A stretch of 51,615 nt of DNA from positions 1-51,615 of the forward strand of contig CANKWU010000012.1 of NCBI GenBank assembly GCA_947487385.1. Reading direction: 5' to 3'. Every line of letters starts with the position of its first letter. Within the stretch, counting starts at the first letter, position 1. Positions 9,818 to 51,509 of this stretch are shown one piece after another. Source of the stretch: Spartobacteria bacterium. Its GTDB lineage: Bacteria; Verrucomicrobiota; Verrucomicrobiia; Chthoniobacterales; UBA6821. A model generated the notes under the pieces. It was not told where the DNA came from. It ran no database searches and saw nothing but the letters and a program-made list of their open reading frames with translations. Made by a program: the position numbers and the translations under genes.

Positions 9818-10381
9818 TTAAAAGCCCAGCAGTCCAGAGACAAGGAGGAGGATGCCGTAGGCTACTCCAGCCCAGCAGACGAGATCCCATCGCCATTTCC
9901 TGGTGCAGATCCAGCCGATCAGATCTCGGTGGAGATAAGGCATCCCGACCAGGAAAAGTCCGGCAAGTGCCCACCCGTAAGCCAGGAGTGACAGGGCGAT
10001 CTTGGCGACGCCATGCTGAAGAAACGTTGTTTCCAGAACCGGATGGGCCGCAAGCAGAAGTAAAAACCCGAGCGAGCGTGAGGAGAGGAAATCAGGGACC
10101 AATTTCCAGAGTAGGACACCTCCTGCAATAACTCCGAGAAGGAGGAGGTTTCTTATAGGATTGAACTCTCCCAGATCCGTAGAGGCCGTGATGCCCAATG
10201 TCCAGAGAATCGCAATCCCAAGCAGGAGAGTTCCCCAGAAGCGTGAGCGGGGGAAGGATTTTGCCTCGTTGATCAGAAAGCTGGATGCTGCGATTCCAAA
10301 AAGATGGGTTCCGGCAAGAGCCACTCCAAGAAGGATGGCAAGAAGAGGGAGACTGAGTGCGAAAGAGCTCTGCGTTTCCAT
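9818..10381 (-). CDS. Multi-spanning membrane protein, function unknown
   Basis: The product is about 187 residues from the ATG at 10379-10381 (METQSSFALSLPLLAILLG). It is almost wholly hydrophobic, with some five or six transmembrane helices separated by short charged loops such as SFPRSRFWG and ICTRKWRWDL. No family is recognised. A TTG 14 codons upstream (10421-10423) is an alternative start. It is on the same strand as the RNase III gene, starting 66 bases after that gene's stop, so the two may be co-transcribed. Confidence 0.6.
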   Translation of the reverse strand: METQSSFALSLPLLAILLGVALAGTHLFGIAASSFLINEAKSFPRSRFWGTLLLGIAILWTLGITASTDLGEFNPIRNLLLLGVIAGGVLLWKLVPDFLSSRSLGFLLLLAAHPVLETTFLQHGVAKIALSLLAYGWALAGLFLVGMPYLHRDLIGWICTRKWRWDLVCWAGVAYGILLLVSGLLGF

Positions 10382-38351: not shown

Positions 38352-38951
38352 CTAGTGCGCCCCCTGCAGGACAATCTCGGTGATCCCGGGGAGCTGGGAG
38401 GTTTTGCCGGGAGTGATCTCATCGATTGTCAGTTCGATGAGATCTCCCTGATTGATCATGATGTCCTCGAAGTGAAAGGCCTGCCAGCGCCAGGTATCGG
38501 CGAGATGGAGGCGGGCGATCGGCTTTTTATTCACGACCAGAGTCATGGTCTTCACGCGGGCAAAGCCTCGGAACTCCTCCAGTGTCCTGATCACACCGTT
38601 GGCAATGGTGATCCCATAGAGCGGGGTATCCCGGCAATCCTTGGGAAGTTTTTTAGGAATGCAGAACTGGATGATCTCTCCCGTTCCGGAACTGGGTGAG
38701 ATCCAAGCGGTCATGGCGTCATCATCACAGAGCTCGGATGCAGGCTTAAGCGAGGAAGTAGAACGGCCGACCTGCGTTTCCCAGAAGAAGGCACAACGGA
38801 GGGAGCATCCCCCCATGAGCTCTTGAAGCACCGGCTCGCCCACCTTCGGTTTCAGGAGCGGAAGGGAATCAGCGTGGACTAATGATGAGATCGCTGCAAA
38901 AGCCAGTAGGGAGAGTGTAATACAGGAGGATCTCAGGTGCACGATTTGCAA
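38352..38951 (-). CDS. Exported protein with discoidin-like (NADase-type glycan-binding) fold
   Basis: About 199 residues with a signal peptide (CITLSLLAFAAISSLVHA) and a single domain. The segments SSLKPASELCDDDAMTAWIS, GTGEIIQFCIPKKL, LYGITIANGVIRT and WRWQAFHFEDIMI follow the pattern of discoidin-type domains called NADase-type glycan-binding. The ligand is unknown. No ATG is available: a TTG at 38949-38951 or a GTG at 38940-38942 are the candidate starts, and both overlap the end of the Fur-family gene. This gene is probably the third in an operon with the binding protein and regulator upstream. Confidence 0.6.
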   Translation of the reverse strand: MQIVHLRSSCITLSLLAFAAISSLVHADSLPLLKPKVGEPVLQELMGGCSLRCAFFWETQVGRSTSSLKPASELCDDDAMTAWISPSSGTGEIIQFCIPKKLPKDCRDTPLYGITIANGVIRTLEEFRGFARVKTMTLVVNKKPIARLHLADTWRWQAFHFEDIMINQGDLIELTIDEITPGKTSQLPGITEIVLQGAH

Positions 38952-39310
38952 AGTCCGTGGAGAGTGATCTCGTGATCTGTGACCCGGAACCCCGCAGGGA
39001 CTAGTTTTTTAAGACCTTCCACGCATTTCTCGAGGTCGAAGACCGCATGGCATTTTCGGCAGTGAAAGTGATGATGATGTCCTTTGTCGGCACGTTCATA
39101 GCGTGGCGCCTGTCCTGGAATCTCCACACAGCAGACCTGGCCCTCTTCTTGCAGGGTCTTGAGCGTGCGGTAGACCGTGGCGATCCCGAGAGAGGGGACG
39201 CCCCTCAGGGCAAGGGTCAGGATCTCGTCCGGTAGAAGAGGATGCTCCTGCTCTGCCAAGACGGCCTTGATGGCCTCCTTTTGGCGGGTTGTGCGTTGTT
39301 CGATAGCCAA
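38933..39310 (-). CDS. Fur-family metal-responsive regulator 1 (Zur/Fur type)
   Basis: The 125-residue product has the winged-helix part (TTRQKEAIKAVLAEQEHPLL, SLGIATVYRTLKTLQEEGQV) and the metal-binding dimerisation part with ADKGHHHHFHCRKCHAVFDL and a closing HGLCKSC, giving the two CxxC pairs of the structural zinc site. The start appears to be TTG (39308-39310); no ATG precedes it in frame. It lies 26 bases after the metal-binding-protein gene on the same strand and so probably controls its own operon. Whether it senses zinc, iron or manganese cannot be decided by eye, but the neighbours favour zinc. Confidence 0.88.
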   Translation of the reverse strand: MAIEQRTTRQKEAIKAVLAEQEHPLLPDEILTLALRGVPSLGIATVYRTLKTLQEEGQVCCVEIPGQAPRYERADKGHHHHFHCRKCHAVFDLEKCVEGLKKLVPAGFRVTDHEITLHGLCKSCT

Positions 39311-39336
39311 GAGACGAATATGAACTTCTCCCTCAG

Positions 39337-40215
39337 CTATTTCAAGCCATCCACGATGGCTGAGACATTATGCCTCATCATGGAGTCATAGGTGTTTGCC
39401 TCGGTCTCCCCCAGTCCATCGGAGTAAAGCGAGCCGCCCGTCTTGGTGCCGGTCTCATCGGCAATCTGCTGAATGGCGCGGTGATTCTCGATACTCTCGA
39501 AGAAGACAGCCTTCACATGCTCTCCTCTGATCACTTTGATGATTTCCCTCACATGTCGGGAGGATGGCTCTTCATTCGTTGAGACCCCTTTCAAGGGATA
39601 AATGGTGAATCCGTAGTCATGAGCAAAATATTGGAGAGCATCGTGCGATGTGACGAGTTTGCGTTGGTCGTGGGAGAGTCCTGCCAGTTTCACCCGGATC
39701 CAACGCTGCAGTTCGTCTAGGGAGGCAAGATAGCGCTGGGCATTCTTTTGGTAACTGGCTGCATTGGAGGGATCAGCTTTGGCGAATGCGGCAGCTACCA
39801 CTCTGGTGGCCATTTTCATATTTTCAACACTGTGCCACCAATGGGGATCCTCCACTTTCTTTCCATCCTCGTCCATGGTCAGAGAGGGAATATCTCTACC
39901 TATATCAAGGAACTTTGAGGAACCGCCGCCGGCAGCCTCTTCGAGTTTTGTCAGATACCCTTCGATTCCCTTCCCTGTAAAGAGGACAAGGTTCGCATCG
40001 GCGACTTTTTTCACATCGCGCGGTGTTGGCTCGAATTCATGGGGATCGATTCCCGGCTTGATGATCGCCTCGATCTTCACATGGGTCCCGCCGATGTTTT
40101 TTGCGAGATCGGTTGTGATGGTCGAGAGGGAAGCCACGGTAAGGTCGCCCCGGCCCGATGAGGATCCGAGAAAGAGCGCGGCGAGCAGCAGGGGAAGGGG
40201 ATGGATAATTTTCAT
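39337..40215 (-). CDS. ZnuA/TroA-type metal ABC transporter substrate-binding protein
   Basis: The 292-residue product has a signal peptide (MKIIHPLPLLLAALFLGS) and the cluster A-I fold. Likely metal ligands are the His of GIDPHEFEPTPRD, the His residues in DPHWWHSVEN, the His of VTSHDALQYFAHDYG and a C-terminal acidic residue (SLYSDGLGE). Such proteins collect Zn or Mn in the periplasm. The matching permease and ATPase genes are not in the window, which is unusual. There is no long His-rich loop as in many ZnuA proteins. The promoter region (40216-40361) carries a 7-bp inverted repeat and three tandem 9-mers. Confidence 0.9.
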   Translation of the reverse strand: MKIIHPLPLLLAALFLGSSSGRGDLTVASLSTITTDLAKNIGGTHVKIEAIIKPGIDPHEFEPTPRDVKKVADANLVLFTGKGIEGYLTKLEEAAGGGSSKFLDIGRDIPSLTMDEDGKKVEDPHWWHSVENMKMATRVVAAAFAKADPSNAASYQKNAQRYLASLDELQRWIRVKLAGLSHDQRKLVTSHDALQYFAHDYGFTIYPLKGVSTNEEPSSRHVREIIKVIRGEHVKAVFFESIENHRAIQQIADETGTKTGGSLYSDGLGETEANTYDSMMRHNVSAIVDGLK

Positions 40216-40236
40216 GACGCTAATGAGAATAGATTA

Positions 40237-40263
40237 TTGACAATGTTGACAATGTTGACAATG
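40237..40263. repeat. Three tandem copies of TTGACAATG
   Basis: Three exact 9-base copies lie 22 bases upstream of the binding-protein start, between two divergent genes. TTGACA is also a perfect -35 hexamer on the plus strand, so each copy could serve as a -35 box or as a binding site for a regulator. Confidence 0.7.
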
Positions 40264-40272
40264 CAGAGCCCT

Positions 40273-40298
40273 ATTGATAAAAGGTAATCACTATCAAT
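40273..40298. promoter_or_regulatory. Candidate Fur/Zur operator (inverted repeat)
   Basis: ATTGATA and TATCAAT form a perfect 7-bp inverted repeat with a 12-base A/T-rich spacer. It lies between the divergent binding-protein gene and the His-rich barrel gene. TGATA/TATCA half-sites are typical of Fur-family boxes. Binding is inferred. Confidence 0.45.
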
Positions 40299-40361
40299 CA
40301 TTTCGTGCAACACCCATCTTCACTCAATACATCACTCCATGATGTAGGGAACATAAACCCG

Positions 40362-41387
40362 ATGATCCGGTTCACGGCACTGACACTAATCATGGCCATG
40401 ATCATGGCGTTCGCTCCGGCGCGTGTTCATGCGTGCAGTTCATGCCCCAGCGGTAACACCGGGACGAGCTACAACTTCCCCGATGGAGTGGGAGGGATGG
40501 CCTGGATGCAGTACAACTTCGAGTCGCAGAGCCAGAACTACAGCGGCTTCAACAAGGCTCCCGCCGAGTCCAACCATGACAAGCTGGTCCAGACCTCCAC
40601 GATGATCGCAGGGCTCCAGTATTTCTGGAACGAGAAGTGGGGCTTCCAGGTACTGGTTCCATCGGCCAACACTCTCTACCGCTATGCTCCGCACAGCGGC
40701 GATCATGCCGGCGATCATGCCGGGGAGCCCGCGGAGGCCCATGCAGAGGAAGCTCATGCCGAGGAAGCTCATGCCGAAGAGGGGCACGCAGAGGAACACC
40801 AGGGAGAGAAGGTTGTCACCAAGCAGTGGTGGGCCATGGGGGATATCCGCCTGAACGCGATCTGGACGGGTCTCTCCAAGGATCAGTCGACCGGAATCAA
40901 TCTTGGTGTGAAGCTCCCCTCAGGAAACTGGACCGAACCCAATGTCGAGCGCTCCGTGCAGGTCGGCACCGGAAGCACCGACATCCTCTTCGGCTTCTAC
41001 CATCGCCATCGCATCACGAGTGATGCGCTTTGGAGTTGGTATTCCCAGGCCCAGTTGGATGCCCCGGTGATCTCGCAGGGAGGATACACCCCGGGCATAG
41101 CCGTGGATGTCGCGACGGGCATCTACTACTCGGGACTGAGTCTCGGGAAACTGAAGATCCGTCCCATCGGGCAGGCGATTTTCACCACGGTGGGATCGGA
41201 TTCCGGCCCCAATGCCTCCGGCCAGAACAACGGCTTCCAGCAACTCTCGCTCGCTCCTGGTATCGAGTTTGAAATCCATCCCGTGCGTCTCTACGCGGAT
41301 GTGGCCCTTCCTGTCATGAACAACGTCTCCGGCAACCAGCTCATTGCTCCAGCTCAGGTGCGCGTGATCGCCAGCTATTCGTTCTAG
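40362..41387 (+). CDS. Outer-membrane beta-barrel-like protein with His/Glu-rich loop
   Basis: About 341 residues from the ATG at 40362 with a signal peptide (LTLIMAMIMAFAPARVHA, then CSSCPSGN). The body is made of alternating amphipathic strands (LQYFWNEKWGFQVLVP, GDIRLNAIWTGL, GIYYSGLSLGKLKIRP) and ends in ASYSF, the terminal aromatic of barrel proteins. Between strands, about residues 110-150, lies a metal-ligand loop with GDHAGDHAGEPAEAHAEE and repeated AHAEE units. This resembles small barrels annotated as putative transporters, some of which occur near metal-handling genes. It is divergent from the metal-binding-protein gene and shares its operator region, so a part in metal capture or passage is plausible but unproven. 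Confidence 0.7.
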   Translation: MIRFTALTLIMAMIMAFAPARVHACSSCPSGNTGTSYNFPDGVGGMAWMQYNFESQSQNYSGFNKAPAESNHDKLVQTSTMIAGLQYFWNEKWGFQVLVPSANTLYRYAPHSGDHAGDHAGEPAEAHAEEAHAEEAHAEEGHAEEHQGEKVVTKQWWAMGDIRLNAIWTGLSKDQSTGINLGVKLPSGNWTEPNVERSVQVGTGSTDILFGFYHRHRITSDALWSWYSQAQLDAPVISQGGYTPGIAVDVATGIYYSGLSLGKLKIRPIGQAIFTTVGSDSGPNASGQNNGFQQLSLAPGIEFEIHPVRLYADVALPVMNNVSGNQLIAPAQVRVIASYSF

Positions 41388-41515
41388 AACGGTTCCTTGG
41401 GCAAAAAGAGCCCTCGCCTCGGTGACTTCCTGTTTTCCTGATTGATATCTTCGGAATCCGGATCTGGGCGCAGGCTGGTCATCCGTCAGGGAAGCGGCTA
41501 AAGCAAGTGCTTCCC

Positions 41516-42901
41516 ATGAGAATAGTTCGGATCTTTTTCACACTCCTGATCGTTTTGGCTGTCCCGCTCCTGCATGCCGATGCTCCCCCGTTGCTGGACC
41601 CGATGATCAACATTCTTCAGCAGGAGCGTCTGCTTGGTGAGTGGAAAGGCCACCGTCCCAAGTGGAAGGATCAAGGCCTGGACCTCACCGCCCAGTCGGT
41701 CAATGACATGCTCTGGAACACCACTGGCGGCGCCTCTGCTGGGAGTGCCTGCCAAGGTTTGCTCCAGGTGGGGGCGGAGATCGATACCGAGAAGGCCATC
41801 GGCCTCCCAGGGGGTACCTTCAACACCACCTGGCTCTGGCTTTATGGGCGTAACCCCTCCGACTACGTCGGGGATGTCAATGGAGTGAGCGGCATTACGG
41901 GTAATCCGGGCCTTCGCTGTTACCAGCTCTGGTATGAGCAGAACCTGGCCATTGCTGGGATCGATGATGCTGTCTCCTTGCGAGGCGGACTTCTCGGGCT
42001 TGACGCGGAGTTCTGTTACCCTGAGACGGCCCTCCTCTTCCTGAACGGCACCTTTGGTATGCCGGCGCTCATGTCCCAGAATCTCGTTTACAGCGGCCCC
42101 CAGTATCCCATGGCAACGCCGGGCATCAGGCTTGCTGTCAGACCTGTCTCCTGGCTCACCCTGCGCAGCTCCTTCTCCCAGGCCAATCCCTTTTCCCAGA
42201 GTGAGAACCTTCACAACTTCAACTGGAACTTCGGCCCCTCCGGAGGTCTCCTCAGTATGAATGAAGCCGAGGCCCGGTGGGAATCCCTGCTCAAGGAGAG
42301 AAAGCTTCCTGGCTCCGCAAAGGCCGGCTTTTTCATTCAGTCAGGACAGAGTCCCGTGGCTCCCGATGAATTGTCCTTCGGCCCCCCCGATTCACTCCAG
42401 TACTGCACCGGCTTCTACGGGATCATCGACCAGATGTTGTACCGTGCGCCGGGTCAGGATGAAGCCCTGTCGAAAAACCCCGTTACCGGAAAATCGGTCG
42501 TGGATGGTAAGGGTACCGACGGCAAAAGCCCAGCCTCGGAGGCGCCCGTGCGCGGTCTGAATTCCTGGTTGAGATTCGGTTTTTGTCCGCAGTCTTATAA
42601 CCCGCTCTCCATCTACACGGACGGAGGTCTGGTCTACACCGGATTGATCCCGGGCCGTAAGGAAGACAAGACGGGCATTGCCTTCTGCTACGGACAGGTC
42701 AGCAGTGGCTACATGAATCTGGGAAATGCCCAGGGAATTCCGGACCCCTCCTTCGAGGCCGTGATCGAGTTCACCCACTCAATCCGCCTCGCCCCCGCCA
42801 TCGCTCTCCAGCCAGACATCCAGTATGTCATGCATCCCGGCGGGAGTCGTCAGTACGGCAATGCCCTCGTAGCGGGATTCCGGGCCGTGGTGGATTTCTG
42901 A
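41516..42901 (+). CDS. OprB-family carbohydrate-type porin
   Basis: The 461-residue product (ATG at 41516; a GTG nine bases earlier is possible) has a signal peptide (MRIVRIFFTLLIVLAVPLLH). It shows the OprB pattern LLGEWKGHRPKWKDQGLDLT, LQVGAEIDTEKAIGLPGGTF, YQLWYEQNLA and SLRGGLLGLDAEFCYPETAL, and ends AGFRAVVDF as barrel proteins do. OprB-type porins usually pass sugars, but the setting among metal genes leaves room for another solute. It lies 128 bases after the His-rich barrel gene on the same strand. Confidence 0.82.
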   Translation: MRIVRIFFTLLIVLAVPLLHADAPPLLDPMINILQQERLLGEWKGHRPKWKDQGLDLTAQSVNDMLWNTTGGASAGSACQGLLQVGAEIDTEKAIGLPGGTFNTTWLWLYGRNPSDYVGDVNGVSGITGNPGLRCYQLWYEQNLAIAGIDDAVSLRGGLLGLDAEFCYPETALLFLNGTFGMPALMSQNLVYSGPQYPMATPGIRLAVRPVSWLTLRSSFSQANPFSQSENLHNFNWNFGPSGGLLSMNEAEARWESLLKERKLPGSAKAGFFIQSGQSPVAPDELSFGPPDSLQYCTGFYGIIDQMLYRAPGQDEALSKNPVTGKSVVDGKGTDGKSPASEAPVRGLNSWLRFGFCPQSYNPLSIYTDGGLVYTGLIPGRKEDKTGIAFCYGQVSSGYMNLGNAQGIPDPSFEAVIEFTHSIRLAPAIALQPDIQYVMHPGGSRQYGNALVAGFRAVVDF

Positions 42902-42996
42902 GCAAGGTGGCCCTAGGTGTCAGCTAATCGCCTGATGGATCGCACGAGTTCGAAAATCTCCAGGACTTCGCGTCAAACGGGGAAGGGCAAGGAAGC

Positions 42997-43455
42997 TCAC
43001 TTGCATTTTTGAGGCTTCGTGGCCTCGAGTCTCTTTGACGTTCCATGGCAACTGCTGCAGAGACCGGTTAACTGGAGGGAGTGACGGATATCGGTGAAAC
43101 CGAGATCAAGAGCCATCTTTTCAAGCGGCGCTATCATGCACTCCTCAAGGCAGACGGCGGCATTGCACCTTCTGCAGATCACATGGTGGTGGTGGTGCGA
43201 CGGTTCCTCGGGAAGATAGAGCTTCTTGCCTTTGACAATCATGCACTGGAGGAGTCCCGCCTCATCCAGAGAGTCAAGGATCCGGTAAATGGTCGCGCGG
43301 TCGCAGATTTCACCACCTACCAGGGAATGAATCTCTTCTGCTGAAGCGGCTGACTTCACTTCCCTAAGAACGGAAAGCACGGCCCTGCGTCCGGGGGTTG
43401 ACTTCAATCCTGCCCTCTTGAGTGGATTTTCCTTCTGGGGATGGGTGTGCCTCAC
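42997..43455 (-). CDS. Fur-family metal-responsive regulator 2
   Basis: The 152-residue product starts with GTG (43453-43455). It has a winged-helix part (STPGRRAVLSVLREVKSAAS, CDRATIYRILDSLDEAGLLQ) and a metal part with PSHHHHHVICRRCNAAVCLE and GLCSSCHG. Two CxxC pairs and the His run are intact. A basic 14-residue tail follows. It is clearly a paralogue, not a copy, of the regulator at 38933-39310. It faces away from the pseudopilin and PEP-CTERM genes; a perfect palindrome at 43510-43527 lies in the shared control region. Confidence 0.88.
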   Translation of the reverse strand: MRHTHPQKENPLKRAGLKSTPGRRAVLSVLREVKSAASAEEIHSLVGGEICDRATIYRILDSLDEAGLLQCMIVKGKKLYLPEEPSHHHHHVICRRCNAAVCLEECMIAPLEKMALDLGFTDIRHSLQLTGLCSSCHGTSKRLEATKPQKCK

Positions 43456-43509
43456 ACCCTAATCTATGCACGCACAGGGGTTATTGCACGAGCATGAAAA
43501 AATAATATA

Positions 43510-43527
43510 AATGCGAAAAATCGCATT
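43510..43527. promoter_or_regulatory. Candidate operator: perfect 18-base palindrome
   Basis: AATGCGA and TCGCATT flank AAAA, 55 bases upstream of regulator 2 and 35 bases upstream of the pseudopilin start. The symmetry and size suit a Fur-family dimer. It differs from the inverted repeat at 40273-40298, so the two regulators may read different sites. Confidence 0.5.
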
Positions 43528-43561
43528 GACTCATTGCTGCGTGTGCTGCTAAATGCATTCT

Positions 43562-44248
43562 ATGAATTTGCAAGCGAGCTCCAGATCGGCCGGCTTCACG
43601 CTGGTGGAACTGCTCGTGGTGGTGGGGATCATTGGTGTCCTGACGGTCGTCGCAGTTCCGGCAGCACTTGGTGCGATTTCCCGCGCCAACAGTAGTAAGG
43701 ATCTCTCCAACATGCGGCAGATCGGCCAGGGGTTGGCTCTTTATGCTGGGGAGAATGAAGGAAGACTCCCTCCCTCCTCCTGTCTTCTCGAAACCGAGGA
43801 GGAGATGCAACGCAGCTGGATCAATGCCCTCAAGGCTTACTTGGGTGAAAAATATGACGAGCTGAGAATTTCACCATCCGATCCCTTCCGGGCGACACGT
43901 CGCCAATTTCAGAACACGAGTTATGTGATCAACGACGAAGTGGATTCAAGGATGTCCATCATGCAGCGGATCGACGCACCATCGCGCCGAGTCCTTCTCT
44001 TTCTTGCATCCGACAGCAAGAATCCCCGCGGACAAGAGGATCATATTCACGGTGCTTACATGGGTTCCTGGAACAGGATGCTGGGAGAAATCAAACCAGA
44101 TGCCTACTCCGGCAACAAGGGCAACAGGTCCCGGGGATCGTCTCCTTATCTTTTCGCTGATTTTCATGCGGAGATTATCCCGGCGGCCCAGATCAAAACT
44201 CTCGCCGACAGGGGCGTCAATATCGCTCGAGCCCCAGTGACCAACTGA
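43562..44248 (+). CDS. Type II secretion/type IV pilus-like pseudopilin
   Basis: About 228 residues. The prepilin signal is SAGFTLVELLVVVGIIGVLT: cleavage after Gly, Phe at +1 and Glu at +5. The rest (SNMRQIGQGLALYAGENEGR, PSRRVLLFLASDS, a C-terminal SPYLFADFHAEII with the HADF-like segment) is the pattern of the many G-type pseudopilins in Planctomycetes and Verrucomicrobia. It may be a minor pilin or an exported subunit; no secretion machinery is in the window. An ATG nine bases earlier is also possible. It precedes the PEP-CTERM gene by 62 bases. Confidence 0.85.
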   Translation: MNLQASSRSAGFTLVELLVVVGIIGVLTVVAVPAALGAISRANSSKDLSNMRQIGQGLALYAGENEGRLPPSSCLLETEEEMQRSWINALKAYLGEKYDELRISPSDPFRATRRQFQNTSYVINDEVDSRMSIMQRIDAPSRRVLLFLASDSKNPRGQEDHIHGAYMGSWNRMLGEIKPDAYSGNKGNRSRGSSPYLFADFHAEIIPAAQIKTLADRGVNIARAPVTN

Positions 44249-44310
44249 GACCTCGGGCATCCATCTTCATCGCAGAAACCAAACCACAACACATACACCA
44301 TCCCGCAATC

Positions 44311-45009
44311 ATGAAAAACAACCTGAAACACCTCCTCACGATCGGCCTTCTTGCCGCATCACTCGGATCAACCCAATCTCTCAAGGCTGACCCGATCACA
44401 ATCTCCAGCGGCCATACCGACATATTCGAGGCCGAATATGAAAGCATCGGGGGAAGCAACAGCGTTCACCTTGGGGTGCATACGGATGATGGTCATTACG
44501 AACCGGGCGATGTCATCCTGGAGGTTGGAAATGCCGCCTACACCAATACGACTGCCTTTAACTCTACAATTGTCAGTCTCCTTGGAAGCAATGCATGGAT
44601 TCTGCCTGCTGATCTTGAGGAAGCGGCTGCACTTGGAGTGCTTCAGGCGGGCGTGGCCAAGTCCGGCTTAACTAATGCTGCTACCTTCACCATGCTTGGA
44701 GCGGGTCTGGATAACCCCGGAAACTTCGCACTCTTCACATCCGCCAGTTCCATCCGTCTTTCCTCCATCGGAGACACAGTGGGAACAAACAGCTTCAGTA
44801 TCAGCACCGGGCACATTCACTACAACTGGGGATTCTCCGCCCCCGGCATCTACACCTTCGATATGCAGGCGAGTTACGGGGGGGAGCAAAGCGTCGTCGA
44901 GACCTACACGTTCAATGTCGTTCCCGAGCCATCGACCTATGCCCTGCTTGGCGCAGGAGCCGGAATTCTCCTGATGGTCCGCTACAGATCTCTCCGACGT
45001 CGGGCCTGA
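44311..45009 (+). CDS. PEP-CTERM protein of the choice-of-anchor M type
   Basis: The 232-residue product has a signal peptide (MKNNLKHLLTIGLLAASLGS) and a C-terminal sorting signal: VVPEPSTYALLGAGAGILLM followed by the basic RYRSLRRRA. The body begins ITISSGHTDIFEAEYE and has HTDDGHYEPGDVILEVG, SNAWILPAD, GNFALFTSASSI, and GHIHYNWGFSAPGIYTFDMQ. From memory, the HTD start, a w-[IL]-LP segment and a final HxHxNWxF with GxY mark the choice-of-anchor M/TIGR03769 repeats of actinobacteria, which sit beside zinc/manganese-type ABC transporters. The conserved histidines could bind metal. A terminator-like hairpin follows the stop codon. Confidence 0.7.
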   Translation: MKNNLKHLLTIGLLAASLGSTQSLKADPITISSGHTDIFEAEYESIGGSNSVHLGVHTDDGHYEPGDVILEVGNAAYTNTTAFNSTIVSLLGSNAWILPADLEEAAALGVLQAGVAKSGLTNAATFTMLGAGLDNPGNFALFTSASSIRLSSIGDTVGTNSFSISTGHIHYNWGFSAPGIYTFDMQASYGGEQSVVETYTFNVVPEPSTYALLGAGAGILLMVRYRSLRRRA

Positions 45010-45027
45010 TATTTCAATGGACGATTC

Positions 45028-45075
45028 ATCTCCCAAGACGGCATTGCAGTTTGCTTGGGAGATATCGTTTTCCTA
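45028..45075 (+). terminator. Intrinsic-terminator-like hairpin
   Basis: ATCTCCCAAG (45028-45037) and CTTGGGAGAT (45054-45063) make a perfect 10-bp stem with a 16-base loop, followed by ATCGTTTTCC. It comes 19 bases after the PEP-CTERM stop. The loop is longer and the T-run shorter than usual, so it could also be a regulator site for the downstream gene, which starts at 45091. Confidence 0.5.
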
Positions 45076-45090
45076 ATCGTTCGGACAGGG

Positions 45091-45744
45091 ATGAGCACAA
45101 TGGTTGTCAATTCGGATGCCCCCACTTCCCGGCTCTGGGGCCTTCTGCGCGATCTCACCGACGGTCTGGCCCAACAGATGTTCTTCTGGGGGTGTGATGT
45201 GACCCACCCCGGGGGGAACGGACTGAGGAGAGCGGGGCTTGAGCGGATCGCGCGACTGGATTCGGGAGGCGAGGGGACAAGCCGCTATCATATCGGGAGG
45301 GAAGGGGGACGGATCGAGTTGCACGGCTTCTGCGCCGGATGGAGGCCGCTCGATCACGAAGCAGAGGGAGCGCTCTACATCCGCAGGGAACACAGGATAT
45401 TCATGACTTCCGGGGAAACGAATCCGGGGCGCTATGACATGCGGCGACTAAGGAGCGGCGCCGCCGAGGAGATCCTCTCGACGATGGGACCCTTCCTGCG
45501 CTGGTGGGCAGACTACGAGGAGTGGGCGGCGGAGACCTTCGGGAGCGACTGGCGCCAGTCATGCTGGCGCGGATACCTGAAGCTGCGCCCTCACCGGCCG
45601 TGGTTTCCACCGGGTGAGGGGCTTCACTGGCTGCGCGGGTTCATCGCCGCACCGTGCACCGCGGAACGACCCCGGAATATCCTCAGGAGCCGCCGGATCC
45701 CCGGGCTCCCTATTCATTCAAGACGAACCCAACCTTTTTCATGA
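45091..45744 (+). CDS. Uncharacterised protein coupled to the COG0523 GTPase gene
   Basis: About 217 residues from the ATG at 45091 (an ATG nine bases later is also possible). It is soluble, rich in Trp, Arg and Gly. Segments include [53 protein letters not shown]-like [11 protein letters not shown], and [12 protein letters not shown] do not recognise a family. The last ~25 residues look degenerate. Its TGA overlaps the ATG of the GTPase gene (45741-45744, ATGA), so translation is coupled and a shared job, such as being a client or partner of the metal-delivering GTPase, is a reasonable guess. Confidence 0.65.
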
Positions 45745-46994
45745 AAACAAACACCACCGCCCGGCGCCTGCCCGTCACCGTCCTCTCGGGATTCCTGGGA
45801 GCCGGCAAGACCACCCTGCTCAACAATATCCTCAACAACCGCGAAGGGAGGCGCGTCGCCGTGATTGTCAACGACATGAGCGAGGTGAATATCGACGCGG
45901 AACTGGTGCGCGACGGCGGTGCGGAACTCAGCCGCACCGAGGAGAAGCTTGTGGAGATGTCCAACGGCTGCATCTGCTGCACGCTGCGCGATGATTTGCT
46001 CAAGGAGGTGGCGCGTCTCGCCGACGAGGGGAGGTTCGACTATCTCCTGATCGAGTCGACGGGCATCTCCGAGCCGCTCCCGGTGGCGCAGACCTTCACC
46101 TTCACGGACGAGGGGGGCAGAAGCCTGCAGGAACTGACGCGTCTCGACACGATGGTGACTGTTGTGGATGCCGCCAACTTCCTGACGCATTACGAGGGTT
46201 CGGAAACGCTTCTCGACAGGGAGATCGCGCTCGGGGAGGGGGATGAGCGCTCGATTTCCGACCTCTTTGCCGACCAGGTGGAGTTCGCCGATGTCATCGT
46301 GATCAACAAGATCGATCTTGTCGGCACGGAGGAGCTCGCGGAACTTCGGGCGATCCTGCGGAAACTCAATCCCGAAGCCACGATCATCGATGCAGAGAGG
46401 GGGCGCGCGCCACTGGATCAACTCCTGGACACAGGGCTCTTCGACATGGAGAAGGCGCAAGCCTCGGCAGGGTGGCTCCGCGAGCTGAACAACGAGCACA
46501 CGCCGGAGACCGAGGAATACGGGATCGGCAGCTTTGTCTTCCGGGCAAGGAGACCGTTCCACCCGAAACGATATTGGGATTTCATCCATACCGAATGGGG
46601 CGGGCTGCTTCGATCCAAGGGGTATTTCTGGCTGGCGACGCGCCACGACATCGTGGGACTCTGGTCCCAAGCCGGAGGGTCTGCGGAATACCGTCCCGCG
46701 GCGCAATGGTGGGCTGCGGCACCAGAGGGCAGCCTTCCTGAGGAAGAAGAGTCACGGCTGGAGATCACAAGGGAGTGGCGCGAACCCTACGGGGACCGAC
46801 GGCAGGAACTGGTCTTCATCGGTCAGGATCTCCCTAGGGAGAAGATGCTCGAAGAGTTGGAACAGTGCCTGCTCACCGACGAGGAGATGGAGGCCGGGCC
46901 CAACGGCTGGAAACTCCTGCTCGAGGATCCCTTTCCCGCCTGGACCGCTCCCGAGGCTGGGGGCGAGGGAACCGGGGAGGGTGATCCCGACTGA
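45741..46994 (+). CDS. COG0523/CobW-type G3E GTPase, probable zinc metallochaperone
   Basis: The 417-residue product has Walker A ([17 protein letters not shown]), a switch-like [15 protein letters not shown], the metal-binding CxCC motif in [34 protein letters not shown] and NKIDLV. The C-terminal CobW domain has [13 protein letters not shown] and [12 protein letters not shown]. Proteins of this kind (ZigA, YciC, ZNG1 and others) bind zinc or another metal and use GTP to load it on target proteins, often under Zur control in zinc shortage. The neighbouring Fur-family genes and the ZnuA-type protein fit that role. Confidence 0.9.
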
Positions 46995-47056
46995 TTTTCA
47001 TGGTTGGAAGGCCCCGTCCGGAAAGGAACGGGTTTTTTCCCCAACGTATCTCGCGG

Positions 47057-48202
47057 ATGGATGTCACTTTTTTCACCGGCTTTCTGGGTTCCGGAAAGAC
47101 CACCACGCTCAAGCGACTGCTTCGGGAGCACGGCGACGGTATGTCATTCGGTGTCATCGTCAATGACCTGAGCGAACTGGAGGTCGACGGCGAACTCATC
47201 GGCATGGAGGAGCGCGTCTCCGTCAAGAACGGTACGCTGGCCGTCCTCAACAACGGATCGATCTCGGGCGAGAAACTCGGATCCTTTGCCGGGGAGGTCG
47301 CCCGGATGAAGCAAGGGGGGATCCGTCATCTCCTCGTGGAGGCCTCGGGGGCCTCGCATCCCGCCGCAGTGATCGATGCCATCCAATCCGTGGCCGGAAC
47401 GACACTGCGCGCAGTGATCGCGATGGTCGATGCCCGTGCCCTTCTGCACGATCACGGAGGGGGTCTCGACCTCGTGGAGCGGTTGACTTCCCCTGCGGAG
47501 GATGACCCGTGTGCCGCCGATCTTCTGGCATCCCAGCTGCAATCTGCCAGCGTGATCGCCCTGACCAAGGCGGATCTCGTTCCCGAGTCGGAACTGGAGA
47601 GACTCCTGAGATCCCTGCACGCCATCAATCCCACAGCCACCCTGACTGCCTGTGTCTACGGGAAGCTCGATGCGCGCCTGATTCTCGAGTCGGCGCCTTA
47701 CCGGGGAGGTGTCGTGGAGCAAAGGCCGGATCAGGGGGGCGCTCAACGCTACGATATCGGCACGACTGTGGTGAGGAATTCCCGTCCGCTTCATCCACAG
47801 CGATTTCACACCCTTTACCGCGACCGCCTTGGTCTGGGGATCTTCCGGAGCAAGGGTTTCATCTGGTTTGCCAGCCGCCCGGCCGATGTCCTTCTCTGGA
47901 ACCAGGCGGGAGGGGCCATGGGGCTTGAATGGCTCGCCACATGGAGGATAGCGATCCTGCAGGGAGAGGGCGGCGTTCCTCTCCTGCAGGAGGAAAAAGA
48001 GCACCTACGCAAAGTCCTTCGGGATAGTGATCCGCTCTTCGGTGACCGTGGCAATGAACTCACGGTCATCGGGCACGCGATGGATCGCGCGGTGTTCTGC
48101 CGGGAGCTTGAGGAATGCTTCTGCACGGATGAGGAGGTGGAACACTGGCGACAAGGTGGCTCCTTTCCCGATCCCTGGCCGACCCGGATCAGGGAAACCT
48201 GA
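47057..48202 (+). CDS. COG0523-type G3E GTPase paralogue lacking the CxCC cysteines
   Basis: From the ATG at 47057 the product is 381 residues. Walker A (MDVTFFTGFLGSGKTTTLKR), VIVNDLSELEVDGELIG, LLVEASGASHPAAVID and LTKADLV are intact, as is the C-terminal domain (SRPLHPQRFHTLYRD, IFRSKGFIWFASRP). Where relatives have NGCICC this protein has NGSISGEKLGSF: two cysteines are serine and one is glycine. The high-affinity metal site is therefore missing while the GTPase looks functional. It follows the first GTPase by 62 bases and was probably duplicated from a common ancestor. It may act without zinc, use other ligands, or regulate its paralogue. Confidence 0.85.
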   Translation: MDVTFFTGFLGSGKTTTLKRLLREHGDGMSFGVIVNDLSELEVDGELIGMEERVSVKNGTLAVLNNGSISGEKLGSFAGEVARMKQGGIRHLLVEASGASHPAAVIDAIQSVAGTTLRAVIAMVDARALLHDHGGGLDLVERLTSPAEDDPCAADLLASQLQSASVIALTKADLVPESELERLLRSLHAINPTATLTACVYGKLDARLILESAPYRGGVVEQRPDQGGAQRYDIGTTVVRNSRPLHPQRFHTLYRDRLGLGIFRSKGFIWFASRPADVLLWNQAGGAMGLEWLATWRIAILQGEGGVPLLQEEKEHLRKVLRDSDPLFGDRGNELTVIGHAMDRAVFCRELEECFCTDEEVEHWRQGGSFPDPWPTRIRET

Positions 48203-48274: not shown

Positions 48275-49006
48275 ATGGATCCGGAACCACTCATCTCTCC
48301 TAGCCCCCGCGATGCGGAAGCGGTACGCGATTTCTTCAATGGCTGGACGCTCTATCGCAGGATCGTCGATAACGATTACCTCTATCACCGTTCCGTGGGA
48401 GATGTTTTCTCAAGGTGGCTAGACCGTATGGACGGCCCCTTCAATTTTCTTGATCTGGGATGTGGCGATGCAGAGTTCAGTTCCGGGATCCTGAGCGGAA
48501 GGGCGCTTCGCTCCTACACCGGGATCGACCTCTCCCCAGTGGCTCTTGAACTTGCCCATCAAAACACCGCCTCACTTGGCATCCCCTGCAACCTGATTGT
48601 CGGAGACTTCCTCCTGAGCCTGAGCGCATTACCTGAAGAATACGACCTCATCTACATCGGCCTCTCACTCCATCATCTTTCCCGTCAGGAGAAGGAATTC
48701 TTTTTCGGCGAGCTCCGTCGCAAAGTCTCACCGGGAGGATCACTACTGATCTTCGATCCCGTGCTGACTCCCGGTGAGGCGCGTGCTTCCTATCTGGGGC
48801 GCTGGTCCGATCATGCCCAGTGGGCGTGGAATGCATTGACCATAGAGGAGGTCGCGGGGGCCGTTCAGCACGTCACGACTTCTGATTTCCCCGAGGAACT
48901 CTCCACGCTCAACAGGATGGCAGTGGGCGCCGGATTCAATTCCGCAGAAGTCCTCTTCATGGACCGGACAGAATTCTATGCCCTGATGGTGTTTCAGGCG
49001 GCATGA
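48275..49006 (+). CDS. Class I SAM-dependent methyltransferase
   Basis: The 243-residue product carries motif I FLDLGCGDAEFSSGIL, motif II TGIDLSPVALELAHQN and the later YDLIYIGLSLHHLSRQEKEF with GGSLLIFDPVL. This is a small-molecule-type methyltransferase; the substrate cannot be told. No biosynthetic partners are next to it, and it starts 72 bases after the second GTPase gene. Confidence 0.82.
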   Translation: MDPEPLISPSPRDAEAVRDFFNGWTLYRRIVDNDYLYHRSVGDVFSRWLDRMDGPFNFLDLGCGDAEFSSGILSGRALRSYTGIDLSPVALELAHQNTASLGIPCNLIVGDFLLSLSALPEEYDLIYIGLSLHHLSRQEKEFFFGELRRKVSPGGSLLIFDPVLTPGEARASYLGRWSDHAQWAWNALTIEEVAGAVQHVTTSDFPEELSTLNRMAVGAGFNSAEVLFMDRTEFYALMVFQAA

Positions 49007-49084: not shown

Positions 49085-49704
49085 GATGAACCCAGATTTT
49101 GCGATAGCGCTGGTGTAAAAGAGTAGGGAGCATCACCAATATGGTGAACCCGCAATACGAGATTGAGTATAGCGACGAGCAGGTGACGGCATGGGGAGGG
49201 ATGAGGCTGATGAAGGAGGTGCTTGAGAGGAGCGGCGTGAGCAGGCACTTGTCCGAGGCACCCCTTCCCGAGCCCGGGAGCAACCGTGGATATTCGCCGT
49301 TGGTGATGGTGGGGAGCTTTCTGGTGAACGTCTGGATGGGATGTTGCCGCATGAGCCACACCGAGGGCATGGGCCCCAGCCACGATGTCATCGCCTGGGC
49401 TCCTCGGGTGAAGGGAGATACCATCAAGTCAGCCGGCTATCGCCTTGTTCACGTCTTCATGCTCGAGATCCTCATGGTGAAGGATGGGGAGTGGCACTGC
49501 GACCCTGACTTTGCCGGAGGCATTATTTGTTCCATGGAGATCGAGTGGATCATGGGGGCAATCGCCTTCTCACAGCAGAACTCCAAAAAAGAGTTGAAAC
49601 AGAATCTGGAACTCATGCCGACCTACCTCAGAGAGGATTACCGCAAGCTTGCCCGCATCGTCCCCAAGGGCACCCCATGGCCTGAGAGCAGTTGCTGGGG
49701 TTGA
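49085..49704 (+). mobile_element. Decayed IS1380-type element
   Basis: A frame at 49141-49704 begins QYEIEYSDEQVTAWGGMRLM and continues KEVLERSGVSRHLSEAPLPE, then SNRGYSPLVMVGSFLVNVWM. That matches the start of IS1380-family transposases. After about residue 80 the similarity fades: SHTEGMGPSHDVIAWAPRVK is followed by sequence that looks like joined pieces, and the catalytic part is absent. The upstream CCCAGATTTTGCGATAGCG resembles an IS1380 end. No intact second end was found. The element is dead. Confidence 0.6.
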
Positions 49705-50365: not shown

Positions 50366-50659
50366 ATGAAGCCTGTAACACCTGGTGAAATACTACTTGA
50401 GGAGTATCTTGTTCCGCTCGCCCTTTCGCAGAATGCGCTGGGCCGCGCCCTCGGCGTCTCACCCCGCGCTGTCAACGAGATCGTCCTTGGCAAGCGCTGC
50501 ATCACTCCTGAGATGTCCATCAGGTTAGGTAAGTTTTTCGGACAGACTTCCGAGTTCTGGTTCCGGATCCAGAGCAACTGCGACTTCCGCCTCCTGAGGA
50601 AAAAAGAGCGGATGCTGACCGCAAAAGTCCGTCCCTTGTCCGAGTTGCAGGCGGCCTGA
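50366..50659 (+). CDS. higA: HigA-family antitoxin/transcriptional regulator, no toxin visible
   Basis: The 97-residue product has the HigA layout: [40 protein letters not shown] and [20 protein letters not shown]. It binds DNA by a helix-turn-helix and normally neutralises the HigB mRNase. HigB usually lies directly upstream, but only spacer is found there, so this looks like a solitary antitoxin. The gene itself is full length. Confidence 0.85.
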
Positions 50660-50705
50660 AGATCGCTCGGCCCCACGAGCTTAGTTCATCTTTTAACTGC
50701 GCCTC

Positions 50706-50748
50706 CCTATCTCCTATCTCCTATCTCCTATCTCCGCGCCTCAGGCGC
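50706..50748 (+). repeat. Heptamer plus hairpin element, copy 3
   Basis: Four units of CTATCTC (period 7) are followed by GCGCCTCAGGCGC (50736-50748), a 5-bp perfect stem with a 3-base loop. It lies between the HigA-type gene and the DUF3368 gene. Confidence 0.75.
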
Positions 50749-50781
50749 TTCATCCCATAACCTTCAGCTTGGCTCTATAAA

Positions 50782-51255
50782 TTAGCCCGTAACCAGTTTT
50801 CGTAAATCTTCTGAGATCCAGAACCCGGCATCGTCGTGGAGACGATCCATCAGCGTTCCTGCATCAGAGACTAGCCCTCGCTCTCTGGCCTCGATCAGCA
50901 CACCGACCAACCCGACTACCTTCAGCCCCAAGCTTTTGGCCGCGGAACGCCCCAGACGTTCATCGATCAGCAGAAAGTCGGCATTGCACTCCCTTGCCAG
51001 CACGATCGCCTCGGCTTCCCCAGCGCCCAGATCATGCCTCAACAGATTCACAAGTGAATGGTCGAGCACCGATTGCTGGCTGATCCAGACGGCCTCAGCC
51101 ACATTCACGGATCCTTCCTTATCGATCCCTGCCTCGACAACCTCCTTCCAAACAGCATCAGGTATTACCAAGGAACCGAAGATCTCCCGGAGCAGATCCA
51201 ACCTGCCGATCCGCCCAAGCGCAATCAGCGGCGAGGCATCCGATACTACGATCAT
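50782..51255 (-). CDS. DUF3368 PIN-like toxin
   Basis: The 157-residue product begins IVVSDASPLIALGRIGRLDL, the PIN-type start with its first acidic residue, has the GAGEAEAIVLA segment with the second, and LLIDERLGRSAAKSLGL with the third. The DUF3368 family members are presumed RNases of toxin-antitoxin pairs. Its ATG overlaps the antitoxin stop by ATGA (51252-51255). Confidence 0.85.
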   Translation of the reverse strand: MIVVSDASPLIALGRIGRLDLLREIFGSLVIPDAVWKEVVEAGIDKEGSVNVAEAVWISQQSVLDHSLVNLLRHDLGAGEAEAIVLARECNADFLLIDERLGRSAAKSLGLKVVGLVGVLIEARERGLVSDAGTLMDRLHDDAGFWISEDLRKLVTG

Positions 51256-51509
51256 GCACCCCGGAGCCTGGAGAGAGTGCCCGCATCCTCAAGGGCCTCC
51301 TCTGCTCCGTAGTGAGCACCAAGATTCCGCTCACCCAGATGAAACTGAAACTTCCCTACTGAAAGACCGGCTAGTTCCGCCGCTTTTCCCATCGAGAGAC
51401 GTCCAAGCGAGAAAAGCGAGATGGCCAGCTCCAGTTTCAAGTCTGGAACCGACATCCGGGCGGACTCCAGCACATCGGCTGGTAGCTCCATGGTCATTGT
51501 CGCAGGCAT
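51252..51509 (-). CDS. UPF0175-family antitoxin
   Basis: The 85-residue product has the family pattern MELPADVLESARMSVPDLKL, then LFSLGRLSMGKAAELAGLSV and GKFQFHLGERN. UPF0175 proteins are the usual partners of DUF3368 toxins, and the gene directly precedes the toxin with a 4-base overlap. The two form one operon and probably repress their own promoter. Confidence 0.87.
   Translation of the reverse strand: MPATMTMELPADVLESARMSVPDLKLELAISLFSLGRLSMGKAAELAGLSVGKFQFHLGERNLGAHYGAEEALEDAGTLSRLRGA

Follow-up and report, generated by a model that had tools for sequence, protein, structure and literature searches.

A likely zinc-uptake core beside a probably acquired Zur-type operon in a Spartobacteria genome

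Is a contiguous run of metal-linked genes one regulon, or more than one? The question is raised by positions 38352-48202 of contig CANKWU010000012.1 from Spartobacteria bacterium GCA_947487385.1, which lie within an analysed stretch of 51,615 nt (the window). A sequence-only reading of this DNA had proposed a single zinc-scarcity regulon with an outer-membrane capture step. The gene inventory, based on the open reading frame (ORF) listing and on family searches in Pfam and NCBIfam, contains all the genes named there (two Fur-family regulators, a barrel with a His/Glu-rich loop, an OprB-type porin, and a choice-of-anchor M PEP-CTERM protein), and an additional one, a pseudopilin at 43553-44248. 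The stretch consists of two adjacent units of different history, A (38352-42901) and B (42997-48202). We consider it rather probable that unit A is an old zinc-uptake core and that unit B, beside it, is a horizontally acquired Zur operon.

Locus organization

Unit A comprises the following features.

38352-38951, minus strand: NADase-type discoidin-like (glycan-binding) protein (NF047619, 59.8 bits, cut-off 38)
38933-39310, minus strand: Fur1, Fur-family regulator (PF01475, 76 bits)
39337-40215, minus strand: AztC-like zinc-type solute-binding protein of the ZnuA type (PF01297, 265 bits)
40273-40298, no strand: candidate operator ATTGATA-N12-TATCAAT between the ZnuA and barrel genes (exact 7-bp arms)
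40362-41387 (ORF opens at 40305), plus strand: predicted outer-membrane barrel, from reading of the sequence
About 40692-40810, plus strand: His/Glu-rich loop of the barrel (HAEE-type repeats)
41507-42901, plus strand: OprB-type porin (PF04966, 166 bits)

Unit B comprises the following features.

42997-43455, minus strand: Fur2, Fur-family regulator, divergent from the operon (PF01475, 67 bits)
43510-43527, no strand: candidate Zur operator AATGCGA-N4-TCGCATT (spacer AAAA) between Fur2 and the operon
43553-44248, plus strand: type II-like pseudopilin (PF07963, 28 bits)
44311-45009, plus strand: choice-of-anchor M PEP-CTERM protein (NF038134, 67.5 bits, cut-off 55)
45091-45744, plus strand: unknown protein of an unnamed Verrucomicrobiota family
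45741-46994, plus strand: ZigA zinc metallochaperone GTPase with CxCC, as NGCICC (NF038288, 638.5 bits, cut-off 600)
47057-48202, plus strand: G2, a COG0523 relative with Walker A, in which SISG replaces CxCC (PF02492, 105.9 bits vs 20.7)

Conservation and origin of the two units

The genus comparison covers 15 relatives, all of them draft genomes (76-97% complete). The AztC-like ZnuA protein is found in 13, with protein identities of 62-95%; at the locus, Fur1 is present in 12 and OprB in 13 (the contig ends in the remaining two), and the ZnuA-linked barrel occurs in 5. Unit A is a genus core made up of the AztC-like protein, the Fur regulator and OprB, with the barrel in some members. The discoidin-like gene, which overlaps the Fur1 gene, is also present at the ZnuA/Fur1 locus in most of these relatives.

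OprB and the methyltransferase are adjacent in 11 of the 15 relatives, where 6-55 bp separate the two matches; in the window this methyltransferase comes next after unit B, at 48275. Unit B of the window thus lies between these genes, and among the genus relatives it was found only in G021 (the search for the GTPase domain covered all 22 family genomes, that for the other genes the stretches compared). A lone ZigA, 73.5% identical, is encoded in G003 of a sister genus; G012 gave a weak cobW match, and no window query matched that stretch (L096) at E 1e-4. Between the window and G021 the DNA identity of unit B is 94.6% over 5193 columns, compared with 74.4% for Fur1-ZnuA, 76.8% for OprB and 79% for the unlinked GlgE gene. 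From the presence in G021 only and from this difference in identity we infer that unit B was probably acquired horizontally; such an island suggests that a genome can gain the capacity to withstand zinc starvation by transfer. One value weighs against a simple block: with a barrel 90% identical to that of G021, the step in identity is blurred at the left end. This may reflect a longer exchanged tract. In G021 the unit continues into a CxCC COG0523 gene, WD40, ZnuA, ZnuC, ZnuB, and HisI, and this extension is a Zur-type set.

A single ancestral cluster was considered and rejected, as the units differ both in genus conservation and in identity to G021. A single coordinated zinc regulon that is controlled by one Fur or by both and that includes outer-membrane capture would agree with the contiguity of the genes and with the metal links of all the named families, and two loci of other Verrucomicrobiota (L125, L229) combine a ZnuABC set, a barrel-like protein, the unnamed family, anchor-M and pilin. 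We nevertheless judge it improbable: most genus relatives have unit A without unit B, identity to G021 differs between the units, and the candidate operators are unlike (ATTGATA-N12-TATCAAT vs AATGCGA-N4-TCGCATT). Of the proposed zinc-scarcity regulon, the zinc link is retained for unit B, and the single regulon is not supported, since conservation and candidate operators differ.

The zinc-uptake core

The best characterised-family match of the binding protein (39337-40215) is the AztC model (NF040870), with 232 bits. Its third ligand position is His (in TSHDAL), aligned to the His of AHNAF in 5kzj and also His in 5w56; both structures we take to be AztC, and the aligned His to be the third metal ligand. 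Manganese binding proteins have Glu at this position. Based on the AztC likeness and the His as third ligand, a zinc role of unit A is likely. Two scores weigh against this: the 232 bits lie below the cut-off of 350, short of family membership, and a manganese binding-protein model gives 195 bits on the same protein. The latter value fits a unit A that serves manganese or iron, with Fur1 as Mur or Fur and the zinc link confined to unit B, as do the best NCBIfam model of Fur1 (manganese-dependent PerR, 71 bits, below cut-off) and the Fur-box-like words seen by eye near the ZnuA start in some relatives. With the zinc protein AztC as the best model, His as the third ligand, and a His-rich barrel loop, we regard such a unit as rather unlikely. 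Fur1 itself could sense another metal.

The ZnuA-type protein had been read as having no ABC partners. None is linked to it, but the single ABC-3 permease of the window genome is encoded at the unlinked position G000:C6:98526-99293, with an ABC ATPase gene just upstream, and a ZnuA without any transporter was consequently rejected. The window genome encodes one ZnuA-family protein. With the exception of G021, which has two of each, every one of the 16 genus genomes has a single ABC-3 permease and a single ZnuA-family protein. Permease and binding protein are neighbours in G013 and G015; in each of the remaining 14 genomes, a permease is encoded on a different contig from the AztC-like protein. 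Given the sole permease, the matching counts and the linkage across the 16 genomes, the ZnuA protein most likely serves the unlinked permease. No Zur-type box was seen by eye upstream of the orphan ABC genes. In G013 (L106) and G015 (L105), the binding protein between Fur1 and OprB is another one, and a permease gene is linked to it; this pair replaces, at the same locus, both the AztC-like protein and the unlinked permease.

The barrel has no match in Pfam or NCBIfam. Its His/Glu-rich loop is present in all six ZnuA-linked copies and missing from the five unlinked paralogues that cover the place; the G011 paralogue has HVHVH there, and three fragments were left unjudged. The candidate operator ATTGATA-N12-TATCAAT is nearly identical among the six genomes in which the barrel is linked. 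The barrel/OprB interval of G021 (L028, about 9945-10230) contains an extra stretch with inverted GGGCCTGTTAAGA-like ends that resembles a small insertion element; it was not seen between barrel and OprB in the window or in G011.

The palindromic box

The palindrome AATGCGA-N4-TCGCATT at 43510-43527 is the only perfect copy in the window genome, and G021 also has one. With up to two mismatches, 18 sites are found in the window genome and 13 in G021, compared with 5 and 4 for the reversed-pattern controls. A form with a spacer of five, AATGCRA-N5-TYGCATT, is enriched in 80 loci of the unnamed protein family (the best 80 of 92 GTDB-contig matches, some on short contigs). At up to one mismatch 62 sites were found vs 1.0 expected, distributed over 45 of the 80 loci, and at up to two mismatches 140 vs 20 expected. 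Permuted or everted arms gave 0-2 sites vs 60, and no comparable excess was seen in these loci for spacings N1-N4, N6 and N7.

Of the 140 sites, 119 lie close to a start, taken as the first possible one, of a gene from the searched families (21 do not), the nearest start being that of the unnamed-family gene (52), ZigA (16), anchor-M (14), G2 (7), MerC (6), a FeoB-like protein (6), a flavin enzyme (5), or another searched family (13). Gene distances are rough, as the ORF starts in the locus tables are the first possible ones. A site is located close upstream of 38 of 78 unnamed-family genes. Genome-wide counts of the N5 pattern at up to two mismatches (controls in brackets) are 13 (3) in G087, 16 (2) in G264, 3 (0) in G275, 3 (1) in G199, and 1 (1) in G021. 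The core of the verrucomicrobial box, TGCAA-N5-TTGCA, is identical to the DNA affinity purification sequencing (DAP-seq) site of Clostridium thermocellum Fur_1691, situated before a zinc transporter according to excerpts of PMC8457756. Among the literature matches listed, titles and opening lines of abstracts name no Verrucomicrobiota zinc regulon except for the Luteolibacter zepA palindrome. The N5 box appears to be new in Verrucomicrobiota and provides a means of listing members of the regulon across further genomes of this phylum.

Fur2 is probably a Zur, judging by gene context and box. Several results weigh against this and against the palindrome as its operator. The window genome has no N5 site at up to two mismatches, the spacing in the window being N4, and in the 80 loci the N4 form is found 2 times vs 0.7 (up to one mismatch) and 12 times vs 18.7 (up to two). 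In NCBIfam both Furs have PerR or Fur models as their best matches, none of which reaches its cut-off, and the sequence does not identify either as a Zur. The palindrome at 43510 also fits a terminator-like stem, listed as such on the minus strand, and could be read as a terminator or attenuator rather than an operator; this is highly improbable, as both divergent genes lie downstream of the palindrome, its arms are identical to the half-sites of the N5 box, and in L214 a perfect N5 box separates a barrel-like gene from a divergent Fur gene. In the promoter scan, 3 promoter-like sites were obtained vs 3.5 in shuffles.

The unnamed protein family

The protein at 45091-45744 has no match in Pfam or NCBIfam. 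It had been described as fused by overlap to the GTPase; its stop and the ZigA start do overlap, as ATGA at 45741-45744, and a gene fusion is ruled out. The family is found in 9 of 387 phylum genomes and choice-of-anchor M in 28 of 387 (25 over cut-off). They co-occur in 6 of the 9, vs 28 of 387 overall (Fisher p 6e-6, the related genomes not being independent). The record titles of the 92 GTDB-contig matches are all Verrucomicrobiota, except one titled only 'Bacterium'.

The neighbours in the 80 loci, counted without a matched background rate, include COG0523-type proteins (50), MerC (21), flavin oxidoreductase (20), choice-of-anchor M (17), ZnuC-like ATPase (14), FeoB-like protein (11), TonB receptor (10), and HisI (7); the adjacency count in this table is at least 13 of 74. 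At least one zinc-linked family is present in 67 of the 80 loci; the other 13, with none of the zinc-linked families searched for, weigh against the zinc link. In L191 the gene order is that of the window (pilin, anchor-M, anchor-M, unnamed family, ZigA), and in L236, L244 and L253 the genes for G2, the unnamed family and a Fur-family regulator are consecutive. The flavin oxidoreductase (YpdA-like, below cut-off) and the FeoB-like protein often flank the unnamed-family gene and can carry the box (L124 7903-11476, L225, L243), which makes them possible additional members of the zinc regulon.

An alignment of 50 members was prepared (49 of the 80 loci and the window; L201, L202, L204, L231 and 27 others were excluded). 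Searches of these members in Pfam gave nothing convincing (four families, each hit by a single member, lowest E 0.028), and the family profile found no sequence relatives in the PDB (best E 0.079). The AlphaFold2 model, a confident one (pLDDT 88, pTM 0.85), shows five longer strands between helices; Foldseek returned 32 PDB matches to it, none under E 0.001. The family itself appears to be new and, judging from the model, perhaps has a new fold.

ZigA and the CxCC-less GTPase

Two COG0523 GTPases had been proposed. ZigA (45741-46994) exceeds its curated score and has both the CxCC and the GTPase motifs. G2 (47057-48202) has the CobW GTPase domain, but SISG stands in place of the CxCC metal motif of COG0523, and it is therefore described as a COG0523 relative and not as a full member. 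Zinc linkage of unit B is well supported by the genes and sites taken together, that is, ZigA over its cut-off, the longer G021 copy, the box with the clostridial core in related loci, and the linkage of its families to zinc genes in the phylum.

C-x-CC is absent from 28 of 100 COG0523-type rows (the window's own gene is counted twice). All 28 retain Walker A together with an E-[ST]-[ST]-G or EASG motif, and at the position of NKID in ZigA they carry TKxD, TKxE or SKAD; as the rows from L160-L189 were chosen by the Walker A pattern, its presence there is partly by choice. The 28 rows form one clade with an SH-aLRT of 100, in a quick tree without bootstrap and with long-branch warnings, L268 included. 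Two forms are distinguished, one GSISG-like (17 rows and the divergent L268) and one HGxHA-like (10). In the HGxHA form (L197, L237, L238, L263, and others) a His-containing stretch replaces the Cys triad, a possible different metal site.

The sole comparable case met in the literature is Rv0106, a COG0523-like exception with CXSC and no Walker A, in a paper whose excerpts state that all COG0523 members have CXCC (PMC2770081). No CxCC-less COG0523 clade is announced in the titles and excerpts of the best matches listed, and the clade appears to be new. A conserved clade of this kind sets the GTPase function apart from metal carrying and makes the role of COG0523 proteins testable.

A broader proposal is a zinc-starvation programme specific to Verrucomicrobiota, with an AATGCAA-N5-TTGCATT box, a new family perhaps of new fold as its signature, and operons that join this family to a cysteine-free COG0523-like GTPase; we put it forward tentatively, short of an even chance. 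Under this proposal the unnamed protein and G2 would work as a pair that needs no zinc bound by cysteine; one example would be a GTP-driven switch sensing unmetallated clients or controlling ZigA. Alternatively, zinc might be held through His where HGxHA replaces GSISG.

The anchor-M exoprotein and its partners

The anchor-M protein exceeds the curated domain score and has the surface-anchor signal (PEP-CTERM TIGR02595, 22.6, cut-off 16). D37, H57, H168 and H170 are invariant in 14 aligned choice-of-anchor M proteins (L242 was left out), and these residues plausibly form a metal site, making the protein a candidate zinc-catching exoprotein. The absence of the ZepA motif H-X2-9-H-[FY]-H from the whole protein, with SVHLGVHTDDGHYE at that place, weighs against this. 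The model (pLDDT 83) consists mainly of beta structure and has two short helices at its middle, and the fold search gave no match under E 0.001 (the best, a laccase, has E 0.0019 and a TM-score of 0.32). L124 and L125 have pseudopilin relatives adjoining anchor-M genes. The anchor-M genes of G199 are accompanied by genes for a TonB receptor and for a protein whose N-terminus is His-rich; the best model of this receptor, the only one scanned, is ZnuD (218 bits, below the cut-off of 950).

Proposed mechanism

In unit A, zinc would pass the outer membrane through OprB, and some species would add the barrel, whose His/Glu loop may concentrate zinc. The AztC-like protein would hand zinc over to the sole ABC-3 permease, encoded elsewhere. 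In unit B, zinc-bound Fur2 would act as Zur and repress itself and the divergent pilin/anchor-M/unnamed protein/ZigA/G2 operon by binding the palindrome at 43510, the shorter box of the window. Upon zinc exhaustion, the anchor-M protein would be exported and catch zinc outside the cell, and ZigA would be made and pass scarce zinc to client enzymes. The unnamed protein and the CxCC-less GTPase would act together with these in the cytoplasm.

Flanking sequence

Beyond unit B, right after the methyltransferase, a frame at 49141-49704 of the window resembles the N-terminal part of a transposase by eye, and short frames at 50366-51509 resemble toxin-antitoxin genes (HigA-like, PIN-like, and UPF0175-like, also by eye).

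Comparison with known systems

The unit A protein resembles AztC (PDB 5kzj, 5w56) as its best characterised-family match and in the His at the third ligand position. It differs in scoring below the cut-off, in the unlinked permease, and in the lack of a WD40 (AztD-like) gene in unit A.

For unit B, one close case is ZepA. Excerpts of Sarasa-Buisan et al. 2024 (PMC10957091) describe zinc exoproteins of the PEP-CTERM kind that are encoded close to COG0523 and Fur genes and have homologues in the PVC group; they also report a palindrome of the clostridial type ahead of the zepA gene in Luteolibacter yonseiensis. The view that the cluster had not been described as a unit holds in part, given these exoproteins. 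The window anchor-M protein is likewise an exported PEP-CTERM protein near Fur-family and COG0523 genes, and the predicted ZepA structure, a beta-sandwich and a second part with two short helices, resembles the window model when compared by description. In contrast to ZepA, the window protein has no H-X2-9-H-[FY]-H, and the unnamed protein, the pseudopilin, and the CxCC-less GTPase are unmentioned in the excerpts of that paper.

Zur-regulated COG0523 genes with WD40, HisI, and ZnuABC are described in excerpts of Haas et al. 2009 (PMC2770081). Unit B shares with them the COG0523 gene in a zinc context, and the island form of G021 adds the CxCC COG0523, WD40, ZnuABC, and HisI, whereas the copy in the window is without the ABC part and has the CxCC-less GTPase.

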